Shown here piece by piece: positions 5,939 to 52,889 of a DNA stretch of 64,000 nt. The DNA is taken from assembly GCF_030717995.2 (NCBI RefSeq), contig NZ_CP157743.1, positions 2,878,501 to 2,942,500 on the forward strand. The letters are read 5' to 3'. The translations under genes were made by a program, and so were the position numbers. The DNA comes from Methylomarinum sp. Ch1-1. GTDB lineage: Bacteria; Pseudomonadota; Gammaproteobacteria; Methylococcales; Methylomonadaceae. Under the pieces are notes generated by a model, which did no database searches, was not told the DNA's origin, and saw only the letters and a program-made list of their open reading frames with translations. The first letter of the stretch is position 1; the number at the start of each line of letters is the position of its first letter.

Positions 5939-6172
5939 TCGTGCTTGCTGTGAATTTGAAAGCGACAATTTCATGATGTCAGGTTACTGACGCTTACACT
6001 TATTCAAAATTCTATACACCGAAAGTCTCTCAGGATAGCTAAAAGTTGCCTCTCACTATCCAAACTTAATGACAGCTCATTGATGTAGTGCCGACATAGT
6101 TGATTGCCATAGGCGAACGGCAGCTTGGGGTCGGACCTGATGTTCAGCTGATCTAAAATGAAATTGTAACTA
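5939..6172. other. Intergenic region with a possible gene remnant
   Basis: Non-coding between the regulator and the nested repeats. On the minus strand about 50 codons ending near 6010 stay open (LPFAYGNQLCRHYINEL then SERQLLAILRDF), and the frame would continue across the repeat if that were removed. I recognise no family, and it may be chance. Confidence 0.3.
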
Positions 6173-6223
6173 TTCAGTATCTTTCAGGGTTTAGGGAGTA
6201 GACCATTGATTTCTCGGGACGCG

Positions 6224-6292
6224 TTCACCCAGCACCTAAATACCCTAGGTTATTGGCTATGATTAATAATCTTCGTTAATTTAGGTGCTGGG
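6224..6292. repeat. 69-bp palindromic element, copy 1
   Basis: It runs from TTCACCCAGCACCTAAAT to ATTTAGGTGCTGGG, with perfect 15-base inverted arms and a 37-base core. Repeat A at 28182-28324 shows the empty site: GGGACGCG joins TGAATAC directly there. No target duplication longer than one ambiguous T is visible. The core is inverted relative to copy 2 at 23854. Confidence 0.85.
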
Positions 6293-6310
6293 TGAATACA
6301 TCCATGTAAG

Positions 6311-6479
6311 CAGCAATTCCCATCAGTTTGAGTATTTTTGCGGTGTTTAGGGCATGGGGTGTGTCTGTCGAGGAGCGCCGTAAACCCATCCCTGGGGGCT
6401 TGACGGCAGCATCCTTGCTGCCGACATCCTCGCCAAACACACCCCATGCCCTTTTTGAACGCCAAAGTGGGAATTGCTG
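6311..6479. mobile_element. 169-bp MITE with 9-bp target duplication
   Basis: It has perfect 12-base terminal repeats (CAGCAATTCCCA...TGGGAATTGCTG) and the duplication CCATGTAAG at 6302-6310 and 6480-6488. Inside are long imperfect arms (CATGGGGTGTGTCTGTCGAG against its partner) and a hairpin module GGCTTGACGGCAGC. The empty site is visible in repeat A copy 2 (junction at 28255/28256). It encodes nothing. The ends match the transposon end at 2074-2085, which suggests that transposase moved it. Confidence 0.85.
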
Positions 6480-6624
6480 CCATGTAAGCTCTGGCTGCAA
6501 CGTCCTGTTGCAGACAGCCCGATAAATCAATAATTTACTCCCTCTGATAAAATACGCTGAATAATATACGCCTTAACATAGACGTAAACGAGTGTTTTCG
6601 TGCCTTGGACTTCCCCCTAAAATC

Positions 6625-8866: not shown

Positions 8867-9190
8867 TTATTGCTCGGAGTCAGGCGCAGTCATGCTGCCG
8901 CTGCAACCGCCTTCCTTCATCTTGCCGGCCCCGCATTTACCTTCGCTGCATTTGCCTTCTTTCATCTTTTCCATGCTGCCGCTGCAACCGCCTTCCTTCA
9001 TTTTGCCTGCTCCACATTTACCTTCGCCGCATTTACCTTCGCGGCCCTTAGAACCCGCTTCCGCCAGTTGCATGGAATGGTCGATTTTCTGCATCGCGAA
9101 TGGATTTTCATCAGCCTGTACTGCGTGGCCGCTCAATAACGAAATCGCAGCAACGCCGCTCAATGAAGCAATCAATTTATTTTTTTTCAT
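8867..9190 (-). CDS. HvfA-type Cys-rich RiPP metallophore precursor
   Basis: A 107-residue precursor. The start at 9190 (MKKNKLIASL) is chosen over an upstream in-frame ATG because GGAGA lies 6 bases before it. A signal peptide (about 1-25, ending near VQADE) is followed by a core with six cysteines in EGKC/EGGC motifs. The last 55 residues are a tandem duplication: EGKCGEGKCGAGKMKEGGCS and EGKCSEGKCGAGKMKEGGCS. In the characterised Haemophilus HvfA, EGKC cysteines become oxazolone/thioamide groups that bind copper, so this product is probably an exported copper-binding peptide. Confidence 0.92.
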   Translation of the reverse strand: MKKNKLIASLSGVAAISLLSGHAVQADENPFAMQKIDHSMQLAEAGSKGREGKCGEGKCGAGKMKEGGCSGSMEKMKEGKCSEGKCGAGKMKEGGCSGSMTAPDSEQ

Positions 9191-23821: not shown

Positions 23822-24046
23822 GGAGGTTCGGTAACTCGCTTGACAGGACGCCGTTCACCCAGCACCTAAATAAACGAAGATGATTTATCGCAGCCATTAT
23901 CCTATGGAATTTAGGTGCTGGGTGAATACATCCGTGGCAGCTAACAGCTCCTGCTTACCGCTGCACTTACACGTCCTTGTGCGGTGTAGGCTTGACGGCG
24001 GCTATCCCTGCCGCCGACACCTGTCAAACGAGCCACCGAACCCCCT
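23822..24046. repeat. Structured repeat with long outer stem and hairpin module
   Basis: Outer arms (GGAGGTTCGGTAACTCGCTT at 23822 and its partner ending near 24046) pair with a few mismatches. Inside are a 69-bp palindrome and the module GGCTTGACGGCGGC-TATC-CCTGCCGCCGACA. The 169-bp MITE has the same layout with a different outer-stem sequence. It fills most of the gap between malic enzyme and the next gene; no gene is seen here. Confidence 0.65.
23854..23922. repeat. 69-bp palindromic element, copy 2
   Basis: It has the same 15-base perfect arms as copy 1, and the length is again exactly 69. The core (AACGAAGATGATTTATCGCA) is homologous to the reverse complement of the core of copy 1. It is flanked by ...GACGCCG and TGAATACATCC, as at the other sites. 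Confidence 0.85.
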
Positions 24047-28169: not shown

Positions 28170-28181
28170 AAAAGTTTGTTA

Positions 28182-28324
28182 TTCAGCGTATTTTTATCAG
28201 AGGGAGTAGGCTATTGATTTATCGGGCTGTCTGCAACAGGACGTTGCAGTCAGAGCTTACATGGAAGTATTCACGCGTCCCGAGAAATCAATGGTCTACT
28301 CCCTAAACCCTGAAAGATACTGAA
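28182..28324. mobile_element. Repeat A copy 2: empty 143-bp MITE
   Basis: The reverse complement of the outer parts of 6173-6561. It is flanked by TA on both sides (28180-28181 and 28325-28326). Here GGGACGCG joins TGAATAC (28273/28274) and CCATGTAAG joins CTCTG (28255/28256) on the minus strand, so it is the empty site for both elements nested in copy 1. The whole element folds as a long imperfect hairpin. Confidence 0.85.
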
Positions 28325-28330
28325 TAGTTA

Positions 28331-30200
28331 GTGCGGCCAGGCAAGGTCGTTTATTCCAGCGGGCGAGAATCCCGTCCCAGAAGGCCGGTCAGCCACTGGG
28401 TAGAGTCTTTGGGTCGGCGGGGGTAACCCCAAAGATTAAGCACAAAGCAACTCAAGACAACAGGCCGTAAGCGAAAGCTGAAGTGATTGAGCCTCGAAAG
28501 CAGAGACAAGAGAGGGATGACGTAGTTAACTATGCGGAAATCAACACAGAGTGAGGCGTCATGACAAGTCTTACTCTGCCTCTCCGGGGTCGAAGAGCAT
28601 GGCATGTTGGACACCGGGAATAAACGGCAACCTGGGAGAACCTATCAGGCCTCACAAGGAAGCGAGTATGTCGGACAAGCGATCATAAAGTAAGAAAGAC
28701 AAATGCCTATAGGTAGTCGGATAACGGTGTAGTACCGATGAACGCGGGTAATGCTGCGGGAGGGAAGACCGTTACATTAAGAAACAACGTTAAGGAGACA
28801 TACCGAACGTGCCCAGAAACGAAGAAACGGTAACCACGAAACTGCAACGTATAGCGGAGAAAGCCCGTAACGAACCGAACTGTCAGTTCACCAGCTTGTT
28901 TCATCTGATGACAGTGGAAATGTTATGGGGATGCTTTGACGCGCTGAGGAATCATGCTGCGTCAGGTATTGATGGAGTCACCAAGCAACAGTACGAGAAC
29001 AACTTACTGGAAAACCTTCAGCAGCTAGTTGGTAAACTGCACCGAATGGCCTACATACCCCAACCGGTGCAACGGGTTTACATCCCAAGCCCGGGACTGA
29101 TAAGTTAAGGCCCTTAGGGATACCGGCGCTGGAAGACAAACTGGTGCAAGCCGGGCTGGTCAAAATCTTACAGGCTATCTATGAGCAAGACTTTATAGAC
29201 GACTCGTATGGATTCAGGCCGGGTAAAGCTGTCATGATGCGCTGCGAGCGTTAAGCCAAACAGTCGAAAATCGACCGATAAACCACATTGTGGAAGCCGA
29301 TATAAAGGCTTTTTCGATACGGTTGACCAAGAGCAGCTGATGACTTTTCTCGCGCATCGTATCGCCGACAAACGCGTATTGCGCTACATCAAACGCTTCT
29401 TGAAAGCGGGTATCGTCGAAGACGGACAGTTTAAAGCCAGTGAAACAGGTACGCCGCAAGGTGGCGTGATATCGCCCTTGCTAGCTAATCTCTATTTGCA
29501 CTACAGCCTAGACTTGTGGATGACCCGCAAGTTTGCGAAAAGCTGCGGTGGAGTCGCCCGAATGATACGCTATGCGGACGACTTTGTCGTCTGCTTCCAG
29601 CAGGAAGCGGATGCCAAACGATTCCGGAACGAGCTAGAAGCACGGCTCGCCCTGTTTGAGCTGACGTTAGCACCGGAGAAAACGCAATGCATTGAATTTG
29701 GCCCGTTAGCGGTCAAACGTGCGAGAGCGCGTGGCGAAAAGGCGGCGACCTTTGATTTTCTGGGGTTTACCCATTACTGTTCACGGACGCGAGACGGAAA
29801 ACGCTTTCGGATGAAGCGGAAGACGATCGGTAAACGCCTAACGGCGAAGCTGAAAGCCTACCGTGCATGGCTTAAGGCAAACCGAAACCTGCCGACCGCC
29901 GAAATACTCAAGCGAACCGCCCGCAAACTGCGAGGCCATTACGGCTACTATGGCGTCACCGATAACAGTCGAGGAATAAACCTGTACTTTTATCAAGTGC
30001 AACGCATTCTACACAAATGGCTGAATCGGCGAGGTCGGAGAAACTGCTGTAGTTGGGCAAAGTTTGCTCTATTGTTAGCGCGTTTTCCACTGCCGAAACC
30101 TAAAATCTTGGTGAATCTATTCTGAATCCGTGAATAGGGTTCTTAATGAGGAGCCGTGTGCGTAAATAGCGCAAGCACGGTTCTGTGAGGGGCTTGGTAA
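28331..30200 (+). mobile_element. Group II intron with decayed maturase
   Basis: It starts with GTGCGGCCAGG (GUGYG consensus), with a structured leader of about 470 bases before the reverse transcriptase frame. A domain V hairpin lies at 30151-30183 (GAGCCGTGTGCG, a GTAAA-type turn, GCACGGTTC), followed by the GTGAGGGG sequence. The 3' end is placed only roughly, near 30195-30205. The 5' exon is the tail of repeat A, five bases past its TA. Insertion next to a long hairpin recalls introns that use stem-loops as targets. Confidence 0.82.
28809..30125 (+). pseudogene. ltrA: Group II intron reverse transcriptase/maturase with three frameshifts
   Basis: Reverse-transcriptase blocks are present in order over three frames: GIDGVTKQQYE, KLRPLGIPALEDKLVQ, DSYGFRPG, HIVEADIK, GTPQGGVISPLLANLYLHY and catalytic MIRYADDFVVCF. 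A maturase X domain follows (LRGHYGYYGVTDNSRGINLY to FPLPKPKILVNLF). Single-base deletions lie near 29097, 29228 and 29307. There is no C-terminal HNH endonuclease domain. About 440 residues would be encoded if repaired. Not functional as read. Confidence 0.88.
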
Positions 30201-30205
30201 CAATT

Positions 30206-30559
30206 GATGAAATAACAAACTATTTGCAATCACGTAGTAGCCGCGTGCGGCGGGGCGTTCCAGAGAAGCATGGCAAGTACGATGTTATTTGGTCGAAAGA
30301 AACCGGTCTACTCAACCAAAAGTTTAAACATTTGTACATAATCACTCGGAAAAACACTCAATAATATGATGACCGGATGTCGACTGACCTTACGCTATTC
30401 CCGAGGGAAGTAGTGCTGTGCGACTAGCCGTATAAAATATATAAAAACTACGCACATGCCAGGAATACTATTTAATTGTAAGGAACGCCGTATTGGTTCG
30501 ACTTATACTGGAAGCAAAGGGACAAGACGCTTTAAGACAATGCTTCAAGGGGGAACGAT
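30206..30559. other. Non-coding stretch, nothing recognised
   Basis: About 350 bases between the intron and the invertase gene. I see no gene or clear repeat. A GGGGG run before the GTG start at 30560 is the only evident signal. Confidence 0.5.
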
Positions 30560-39233: not shown

Positions 39234-40067
39234 ATGATCATGAAACAATCCAAGCATCACATTATCAAAATCGATGGACACAGCATCGCTTACGCTGAAC
39301 AGGGCGAGGGCAGTCCGGTCGTCCTGATTCATGGCATCCCGACATCAAATCTGTTGTGGCGGAAGGTAATGCCGGAATTGGCCAAAACACACCAGGTGTT
39401 TGCGCCCGATCTGCTGAATTACGGAAAATCGGATAAACCGGTGGAGGCCAACGTCTCCATTGAAGCGCAGAGCCGCCTGATCGTGAAGTTTATGGATGAA
39501 CTCGGCATCAAGTCCGCCGACATCGTGGCGCATGATATAGGCGGAGGGGTCGCACAACTTATCGCGGTCAATTATCCTGAAAGAGTTCGAAAGCTGGTCT
39601 TGATCGATGCGGTCTGTTTTGATTCCTGGCCGATTCCGGAGTTCATACCGCTGCAGAAAACGGGTGCTGAGGAGAACATGAGCCTCGAAGCCTTCCTGAC
39701 AATGATGCGCGGATTCATGCCGCAAGGCGTCTACAACAAAGCAGCGATGACCGATGAAGTTGTCGACCTATATCTTGCGCCGTGGTCGTCCGAAGCCGGC
39801 AAAAAGGCCTTATTTCGCAATTTTCGGCGATTGAACCCGGAGTACACCCAAGCGATTGCCGGCGACCTTAGGCATCTGCCCCATGAAACGCTCATTATGT
39901 GGGCAGAGAATGACATCTTTCAAAAACCGGCCTACGCAAGCCAGCTTCAGCAGACGATTCCAAACGCCAAGCTGATCTGGATCAAGGACGCCGGGCATTG
40001 GCTGATGGAGGAAAAGCCGGAACAGATAAGCGGCCACCTGATCGCTTTCCTTGACGGGGTTAATTAA
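39234..40067 (+). CDS. Haloalkane dehalogenase-like alpha/beta hydrolase
   Basis: A 277-residue hydrolase. The oxyanion stretch is LIHGIPTSNLLW. The nucleophile elbow reads VAHDIGGG with Asp101, as in dehalogenases and not esterases. D227 (WAENDIFQKPAY) and H255 (IKDAGHWLMEEKP) complete the triad. The expected reaction is hydrolytic removal of a halide, though C-C hydrolases and epoxide hydrolases share the fold. The last two codons and the stop (VN*) come from the end of the Tn3-family transposon at 40056. Before the insertion the gene would have ended DGK* (GGGAAATGA, now at 51761). Confidence 0.85.
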   Translation: MIMKQSKHHIIKIDGHSIAYAEQGEGSPVVLIHGIPTSNLLWRKVMPELAKTHQVFAPDLLNYGKSDKPVEANVSIEAQSRLIVKFMDELGIKSADIVAHDIGGGVAQLIAVNYPERVRKLVLIDAVCFDSWPIPEFIPLQKTGAEENMSLEAFLTMMRGFMPQGVYNKAAMTDEVVDLYLAPWSSEAGKKALFRNFRRLNPEYTQAIAGDLRHLPHETLIMWAENDIFQKPAYASQLQQTIPNAKLIWIKDAGHWLMEEKPEQISGHLIAFLDGVN

Positions 40068-40093
40068 CCAAAAGAACGATTTGTCCCGGCACT
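40056..40093 (+). repeat. Left terminal inverted repeat of the Tn3-family transposon
   Basis: It begins GGGGTTAATTAACCAAAAGA and ends CCGGCACT. It matches the right end with one or two mismatches. It supplies the new stop codon of the upstream dehalogenase-like gene. About 290 further bases before the first transposon gene hold no gene. Confidence 0.9.
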
Positions 40094-40388
40094 CCACCGA
40101 AACCTTTGGTATTACTGGCTTGCAGCCGAAAAATCGATTTCAAGTTGGCCGATTGATTTATCTCTGAATTCGCTGTCATCCTTTGGCGTTCTTGCGTTGC
40201 GCTCCTAACGTATGATATAAGTTGATCCCATTCGTCATGTGCGGTTCCGACACCCCGGAATGGCGCGACGTTGAACGAACCGGCACGGAGCTAGGTGAAT
40301 GAGCTTCGGAACCGGCTCAAGATTCCCTGCTCGACTCAGAGCCAATATCGGGTAATGCCCAGTCACCATTGAACTAAGGAAGCGTTTC

Positions 40389-50275: not shown

Positions 50276-51717
50276 TCAGCATATTCATGCCGGCGAAAAT
50301 ACCAGCCTAAAAATTCAGCACAATAAGCAAGGCGACAGCGTCAAATGGACGCTGCCGTATACCCGGCTCGATGACGGCGTTAACAACCCCTTCTACGAAA
50401 AGCTTCATGTTTGCAGTATTGCCGATATTCTCAAGTTTTCAGCGGAAAACACGGGGTTTCTAAAATCATTTTCGCACCTTCAACCCAAATACGCGAAATC
50501 GTTCCCCGATTCCGAAGTCATTCATGCCTGCATTATCGCCAACGCGACGGGGACGGAAACCAAAAAGATGAAAGCGATTAGCGATATAAAAGAACAAGAC
50601 CTGGATCGGGTGAATAAGAACCATATTCGCTATCAAACCCTCGCGACAGCCAATGATGTCATCATGAATCATACGGCCAAATTGCCCATTTTTTCGGAGT
50701 ACAACTTGTCCGATTATGGCGTTCACGCCAGTGTTGACGGTCAAAAGTTCGCAACGAAATACAATACAATCAAATCGCGGTATTCGAAGAAATATTTTGG
50801 CATGTTGCAAGGCGTGGTCTTATTCTCACTAAACGCCAATCATCTACCGCTTTGTCTTAAGGTCATCGGCGCCAATCAGCATGAAAGCCATTTCTTGTTG
50901 GATATTGTCGAAAGCAATACTTCGGATGTTGAAATTACGGCTGTTTCCGGCGATATGCACAGCATCAATCGCGTCAACTTCGCCCTGATGTATCTGTTCG
51001 GTTACCGGTTTATGCCGCGCTTTACTCTGTTGCGGGACAAATCCGAGCATGATCTGGTGTGCTTCGATGAGATCGAGCACTATGCCAAACAAATTATCAA
51101 ACCCAGCAAAAAGGTTAATAAAGCCCTGATTATCAAGGAGTGGGATAAGGTCTTGAGAATACTGGCTTCACTGACCACTAAAAAGACGACACAAAGCCAG
51201 ATCGTCAGCAAATTATCCTCTTATAAAAAGCTGAACCCGACCTTGAAAGCGCTGATCGCCTTCGATGAAATCATCAAGACCGATTATTTGCTGGATTATA
51301 TCGACAACAAAGAAGTACGCGAGGTTGTGCAAGGTTCATTGAATCGCGGCGAATCCTATCACCAATTAAGCGCGACCATTGCCAAAGTCAGCGGCGGCCG
51401 GATGCTCAATGGAAAGACTGAAATTGAACTCGACATCAATGCCGAATCCATCCGGCTCATTGCCAACGCGGTGATTTTTTACAATGCAACTATTTTGTCG
51501 GCACTTTATCAGCATTATCAAACCTCGGACCCAAGCAAAGCGAAGGAAATACTGCGTTTTTCACCCGTCGCCTGGCAGCACATCAACTTCATCGGCAAAT
51601 ATGAATTTTACAACCAGGGAAGTCTTCTTAATATTCAAGAGGTTATCAAAAAAACTGATTGGGGATTCTGAAATCGATTTTTCGGCTACAAGCCAGTGAT
51701 ACCAAGGGTTTCAGCGA

Positions 51718-51755
51718 GGTGCCGGGATAAATCGTTCTTTTGGTTAATTAACCCC
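51718..51755 (-). repeat. Right terminal inverted repeat of the Tn3-family transposon
   Basis: On the minus strand it begins GGGGTTAATTAACCAAAAGA and ends CCGGCACC. It is followed outward by the TTGAC duplication at 51756-51760 and then by the original 3' end of the dehalogenase-like gene (GGGAAATGA at 51761-51769). Confidence 0.9.
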
Positions 51756-51836
51756 TTGACGGGAAATGATTCAAGGAACGGATGGGATGCGTAAGCCGTA
51801 AAGCACACAAGGGTAGAACCACCGGGAGCCAAAATT

Positions 51837-52505: not shown

Positions 52506-52650
52506 AAATGAAAAAGGCAAGGTTCAATGCCATCCTCCAGCTTGTCGACAAATCCACGTTGTCGAGCTGAGGGTCGATAACAGCAATTCCCATCAGTTTG
52601 AGTATTTTTGCGGGGTTTAGGGCACAGGGTGTGTCTGTCGAGGAGCGCCG

Positions 52651-52719
52651 TTCACCCAGCACCTAAATTATGCTGGAATGTAAAATATAGTCCAGTAGCC
52701 ATGGAATTTAGGTGCTGGG
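52651..52719. repeat. 69-bp palindromic element, copy 3
   Basis: The same arms and length as copies 1 and 2; the core differs (GCTGGAATGTAAAATATAGT). The MITE at 6311-6479 is its empty site: GCGCCG joins TAAACCC there, while here the 69 bases lie between them. The boundaries equal those deduced for copy 1. Confidence 0.88.
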
Positions 52720-52889
52720 TAAACCCATCCCTGGGGGCTTGACGGCAGCATCCTTGCTGCCGACATCCTCGCCAAACACACCCCATGCCCTTTTTGAACG
52801 CCAAAGTGATGATATGGACTCCTCTCCACCCTCTAACGGTGTCACAATACACCTACTAACAACTTAAACAGAACAAAGAGGAGTTCGAG

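Follow-up and report, generated by a model that had tools for sequence, protein, structure and literature searches.

Repeat A, at positions 6166-6566 of the analysed stretch of Methylomarinum sp. Ch1-1 DNA (64,000 nucleotides, hereafter the window; C2:2878501-2942500 of a 4.77-Mb genome in three contigs), holds two further repeats, which raises the question of how this nest was assembled and in what order. The outer repeat lies on the plus strand and was delimited by its family ends and duplications. Its left end is GTAACTATTCAG (6166-6177); its right end, CTGAATAAT.., starts at 6557 and has degenerate last bases, and the right limit is approximate. Inside it, on the same strand, lie the palindrome P, a 69-bp insert (TTCACCCAGCACCTAAAT...ATTTAGGTGCTGGG; 6224-6292) at CGCG/TGAATAC, and M, a 169-bp MITE with inverted ends CAGCAATTCCCA (6311-6479), flanked by the 9-bp duplication CCATGTAAG on the left (6302-6310) and on the right (6480-6488). 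M itself contains a three-way-junction core (6356-6445; 99.7 bits).

A second copy of A, on the minus strand (28178-28330), carries neither P nor M and has a core of its own (28208-28297, minus strand; 69.4 bits). Compared with this copy, the 69 bases at 6224-6292 split CGCG|TGAATAC of repeat A, and the 169 bases at 6311-6479 are bracketed by CCATGTAAG, which the second copy has once only; both targets, GCG|TGAATAC and the one CCATGTAAG, are unbroken there. The original prediction, which described P and M as nested in A and took the second copy to mark their insertion points, is thus exact to the base, with agreeing sequences and lengths (69 bp and 169 bp). It overlooked, however, that this copy is no clean empty site: a group II intron (28331-30316, plus strand) splits its right end (GTTA/intron/C), and the last base, C, is found at 30317, past the intron. 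The 8-bp duplication AAAAGTTT encloses A and intron together (28170-28177 and 30318-30325, plus strand).

The intron matches RF02005 (127.5 bits) and RF00029 of Rfam, and its reverse transcriptase lacks a single open frame. Two more copies agree with it throughout their first 60 bases and interrupt other A-type elements at this very position; all three entered at CTGAATAGTTA|. By its RNA domains and its insertion 3' of a stem-loop, it is a group II intron, probably of class C type. Bacterial class C introns insert after terminator-like stem-loops (PMC3522654); the three copies likewise share one entry base, which lies at the 3' foot of A-type palindromes, but what they enter is a transposon end. 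Of 15 group-II-like GTGCG starts that follow A, only 3 match the intron at 28331, and such starts cannot all be counted as introns. In four A-type elements (L368, L370, L373 and L374), GTGYGGCC stands between the terminal CTGAATAGTTA and the 8-bp duplication. These eight additional bases agree with the first eight of the intron (one copy reads GTGTGGCC), which would fit a transposase that cut inside the intron when it moved A out of an intron-bearing copy.

Repeat A had been described as flanked by TA and ending in TTCAG. Its copies across the genome instead start with GTAAYTATTCAG and carry the inverse at the other end, forming terminal inverted repeats that begin GTAA, and are bounded by 8-bp duplications (e.g., GGCCTGAC, ATTAAATG and AAACAAAC), which rules out a TA-flanked (Tc1/IS630-like) origin. 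In a sample of about 80 stretches around the first ends listed, covering roughly the first 2.6 Mb of the genome, 49 of the 64 A elements having both ends were surrounded by an 8-bp duplication whose two copies differed at no more than one base. Three resident IS66 elements of 1.7 kb are bounded by the ends of A, each with an 8-bp duplication, and the protein of a resident element is a clear IS66 transposase (PF03050, E 4.5e-41; NF033517). Because the GTAAYTATTCAG ends and 8-bp duplications are common to A and these elements, A is classified, on sequence grounds, as an IS66-type MITE, presumably mobilised in trans by the resident IS66 transposase; this pairing, like that of M below, rests on 12-bp ends. 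A resembles other IS66-family MITEs in its GTAA-starting ends, its 8-bp duplications, the ends it has in common with a resident IS66 transposase element and its lack of coding capacity, but its interior is the folded core, often together with P, rather than a deleted IS66. The copy at 6166 has no recoverable 8-bp duplication because its right-hand terminal bases are lost, and its own arrival by transposition is presumed from the family rather than demonstrated directly. Three A elements (L290, L344 and L349) carry extra hairpin modules at other slots, reaching a total of up to 581 bp; these modules include a tandem block ending in GGCGGCCGCTAGCGATGTCC and a GCAGATTTTGC hairpin module.

M can be assigned in a similar way. 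Its copies have 9-bp duplications, and its 12-bp ends CAGCAATTCCCA recur on a 1.4-kb element (C2:522176-523585) with a duplication of 9-10 bp. The protein of this element is a DDE_Tnp_1 transposase (PF01609, E 1.6e-5) that matches the IS4_2 model weakly (19.3 bits versus a cut-off of 152), and M is accordingly described here as a putative MITE of a DDE_Tnp_1 (IS4-like) element. The likeness to such MITEs lies in the ends shared with the resident 1.4-kb element and in the 9-bp duplications; M differs in that only the ends are common, for its interior is the folded core, and the junction beside the left end varies. This junction between CAGCAATTCCCA and the interior reads CCCAG, CCCATCAG, CCCATGTCATCAG or CCCATCATCAG in different copies (L033, L036, L037, L041 and others), as if M had acquired its interior on several occasions. 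A second M copy in the window (52580-52808, plus strand) is filled with P (52651-52719, plus strand) at a homologous motif (GCGCCG/P/TAAACCCATCC), giving a filled and an empty M within the window.

The copy numbers put the nest far outside what chance would give. Genome searches scored at least 40 copies each of A, P and M, figures that are lower bounds, and the 12-mers at the ends of A and M were found 302 and 243 times, respectively, compared to 0 for the reversed control patterns. Nested MITEs are common here, and a nest alone is nothing unusual: M lies in other A elements at other positions (L324, L349 and L044), A lies in M (L022), M lies inside P (L053), and P lies inside M in the window copy at 52651-52719.

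The order of events follows from how often each site is filled. The P site could be read in 47 sampled A elements, of which 31 are empty and 16 are filled at the same base, and in 12 of the 16 filled elements an 8-bp duplication surrounds the whole A+P composite. Since the duplications enclose the composites, A+P is shown to transpose as one unit and to be a multicopy composite; P therefore probably came to 6166 with A, inherited rather than inserted locally. Among the M copies listed, only the one at 6311-6479 occupies that place in A, and as the remaining M insertions in A occupy different positions, they arose independently of one another. M at 6311-6479 is private to the 6166 copy and was inserted last. 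The proposal that A came first and then received two insertions thus stands for M, which is late and private, and falls for P, which probably did not insert at the 6166 locus.

We put the probability at roughly 70% that the nest is a stack of non-autonomous elements in which A already held P ancestrally, M arrived last and the core docks P. A, an IS66-type MITE with GTAAYTATTCAG ends, would owe its cut-and-paste movement to the resident IS66 transposase; an ancestral A would have gained P at a fixed unpaired bulge (GTRAA) of its folded interior, after which A+P spread together; and M, a MITE of a DDE transposon, then entered the single A copy at 6166, creating the 9-bp duplication. That the second copy instead once held both P and M and lost them by precise deletion has very little to recommend it. 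P does occupy an identical position in 16 of the 47 elements, and replication slippage can delete palindromes. Deletion would, however, lead one to expect most A copies to carry both inner elements at identical positions, as the original prediction pointed out, whereas most sampled copies are empty at both sites (31 of 47 for P), which favours insertion; M is private, no other M copy among those listed being at the same place in A. An unbroken core is found in A-like repeats of other genera, and the 9-bp duplication of M is a sequence found once in the empty copy, so that as regards M the deletion account is already largely refuted. We also sought an empty orthologous locus for the whole nest in relatives and found none usable, because even in the nearest genome identified the flanking gene shows just 49% identity.

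What singles the locus out is the interior that A and M have in common with a third repeat, B. We aligned the interiors of these three and of two more repeats and found one layout: unrelated outer stems, then a linker and a small hairpin, TACRTCCNTGTA (or CCCATCCNTGGG), which GGCTYGA separates from a second hairpin. The loop is RTCCNT in both hairpins, and the first of them has a fixed bulge. In 11 sequences, 26 of 31 core pairs are compensated, and a covariance model was built from this 11-sequence alignment. In 23 copies drawn from 22 distant genomes, pairing holds in 98.0% of 690 cells, a figure raised by the fitting of the alignment to the model, and compensatory changes occur in 27 of 30 pairs; covariation scores 0.924, with far lower values for the controls (0.216 after shuffling, 0.147 or less with slid partners). 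When a GCY/RGC helix around the 5-nt bulge GTRAA is added, 97.1% of cells are still paired, but only one of the three added pairs covaries. The RTCCNT loops are near-invariant in the same 23 copies, and the bulge too hardly varies. Within this model, covariation shows the core as folding into a three-way junction. Across many gammaproteobacterial families, paired positions are free to change yet stay paired and unpaired ones hardly vary, thereby implying recognition of a folded single strand. Within each of two genomes (G149 and G105; L386, L413-L437, L394 and L416-L436), the outer stems diverge strongly from one core copy to another and are still almost perfectly paired.

The entry point of P is exactly the GTRAA bulge. 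P occurs three times in the window, each time in a different repeat (A, B or M) and always in the one fixed core bulge, directly before T(G/A)AAYMC; in repeat B (23830-24019, plus strand) it occupies 23854-23922 (plus strand) within the same motif (GACGCCG/P/TGAATACATCC) and splits the core (core match 23923-24019). Taking our genome and the named relatives together, in which P is also present (including Methylomicrobium and Methylotuvimicrobium), and allowing up to two mismatches, the core motif adjoins 119 of 153 distinct P copies. We infer that P enters by recognising the core bulge. MITEs of unrelated transposase families carry the core as their interior, and the core would be the docking site of P.

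How P moves is less clear from its ends. Its left end TTCA is constant and its right flank varies (TTCA, TGAA, TAAA or TTTA), which resembles insertion without duplication; in repeat B the flanks of P read as a 4-bp direct repeat, making a duplication equally possible there. P is not the end of a larger autonomous element, as solitary P arms proved to be truncated or interrupted copies and no transposase was seen. The constant end (TTCA/TGAA) with a varying flank, the entry beside a T-N-N-A tetranucleotide with no clear duplication, a P relative nested within P at TTTA and the existence of Y1 genes in the genome would all suit transposition by an IS200/IS605-type or RAYT (Y1) transposase. However, among 20 Y1 matches in three genomes none is flanked by P on both sides (a single 8-base P match was seen at three Y1 loci), and the 4-bp direct repeat in B is a further point against. 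No Y1/RAYT gene could thus be put forward as the mobiliser of P or of the core, and we regard this route for P as doubtful. P and the core might also be static parts of one ancestral palindrome, swapped among A, B and M by recombination, given that P nearly always lies in the core motif and that the repeats of this genome are heavily mosaic. Such an origin is unlikely: the 16 filled A elements hold P in both orientations (13 and 3), P also lies outside the core in some copies, A, B and M have outer stems with no relation to each other, and static parts do not account for the P relative within P.

Docking of P at a folded core, as we prefer to read it, leaves the question of whether the fold is one of DNA or of RNA. 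If the core worked as an RNA transcribed from one strand, wobble pairs would be expected to be tolerated on that strand. The non-Watson-Crick cells of the core include 27 G.T and 24 A.C of 1498, with no strand preference, and one pair of the small hairpin accounts for 12 of the 27 G.T cells. Because neither strand shows a wobble bias, a DNA-level structure is preferred, and we infer that the core acts as folded DNA rather than RNA; the absent bias could alternatively come from upkeep of the palindrome by template switching. A functional RNA would have the MITEs spreading CsrA sponges, with the minus-strand hairpins (CANGGANG loops) resembling CsrA/RsmA sites. The selection consensus of CsrA is RUACARGGAUGU, and the minus-strand core loops, TACANGGAYGTA, are close to it. 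We keep this reading, improbable as it is, because these loops look like putative CsrA sites; there are two GGA hairpin loops (the minus strand of RTCCNT), both near-invariant across the 22 genomes. Besides the lack of a wobble excess, it is opposed by the long, near-perfect outer stems, by the mixed orientation of genes around the copies and by the absence of any Rfam match for the repeats of the window or the core. The explanation we favour for the core is a REP-like palindrome of the chromosome, in single-strand DNA or cruciform form.

A covariance-model search found the core in 49 of 274 gammaproteobacterial genomes, representing 43 of 222 genera, often with many copies per genome. It was not found on plasmids, and 2.9 million viral contigs gave one exact-pattern match. 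A literature text search with 12-14-mers for a published sequence of the core or P returned unrelated subjects only. The nearest description found concerns Halothiobacillus neapolitanus, where CGTC-tagged REP dimers are enclosed by a longer palindrome whose linker is 'attcacg' (PMC3733652). The core has a similar linker, and the published palindrome may represent this family as observed in a single species. Like REP palindromes, the core and P are small chromosomal palindromes with many copies. They differ in having no flanking RAYT and no GTAG tag, and the core additionally in its three-way junction, fixed bulge and identical loops, in its occurrence in 49 of the 274 sampled genomes and in its carriage by MITEs. 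As far as tags were compared, GTAG is absent at P and CGTC precedes hairpin 3 on the minus strand of many core copies.

We tentatively propose, with somewhat less than even confidence, that a widespread, uncatalogued gammaproteobacterial family of chromosomal three-way-junction palindromes spreads inside unrelated MITEs, its strictly conserved bulge serving as a structure-guided entry for a second palindrome. If true, palindromes would accumulate inside palindromes through structure-guided insertion. The locus matters because MITEs of two transposase families plus a third repeat have this one interior in common. Whatever recognises the core would, once found, account for a large class of 'unknown repeats'; the filled and empty pairs in the window are ready test sites. 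Two further repeats of the window were noted: a dispersed inverted pair (40041-40142 and 51669-51770; 102 nt, 86% complementary), and a tandem 69-nt repeat (8891-8959 and 8972-9040; 91% alike, 81-nt spacing) that sits in a coding-looking region of the minus strand.
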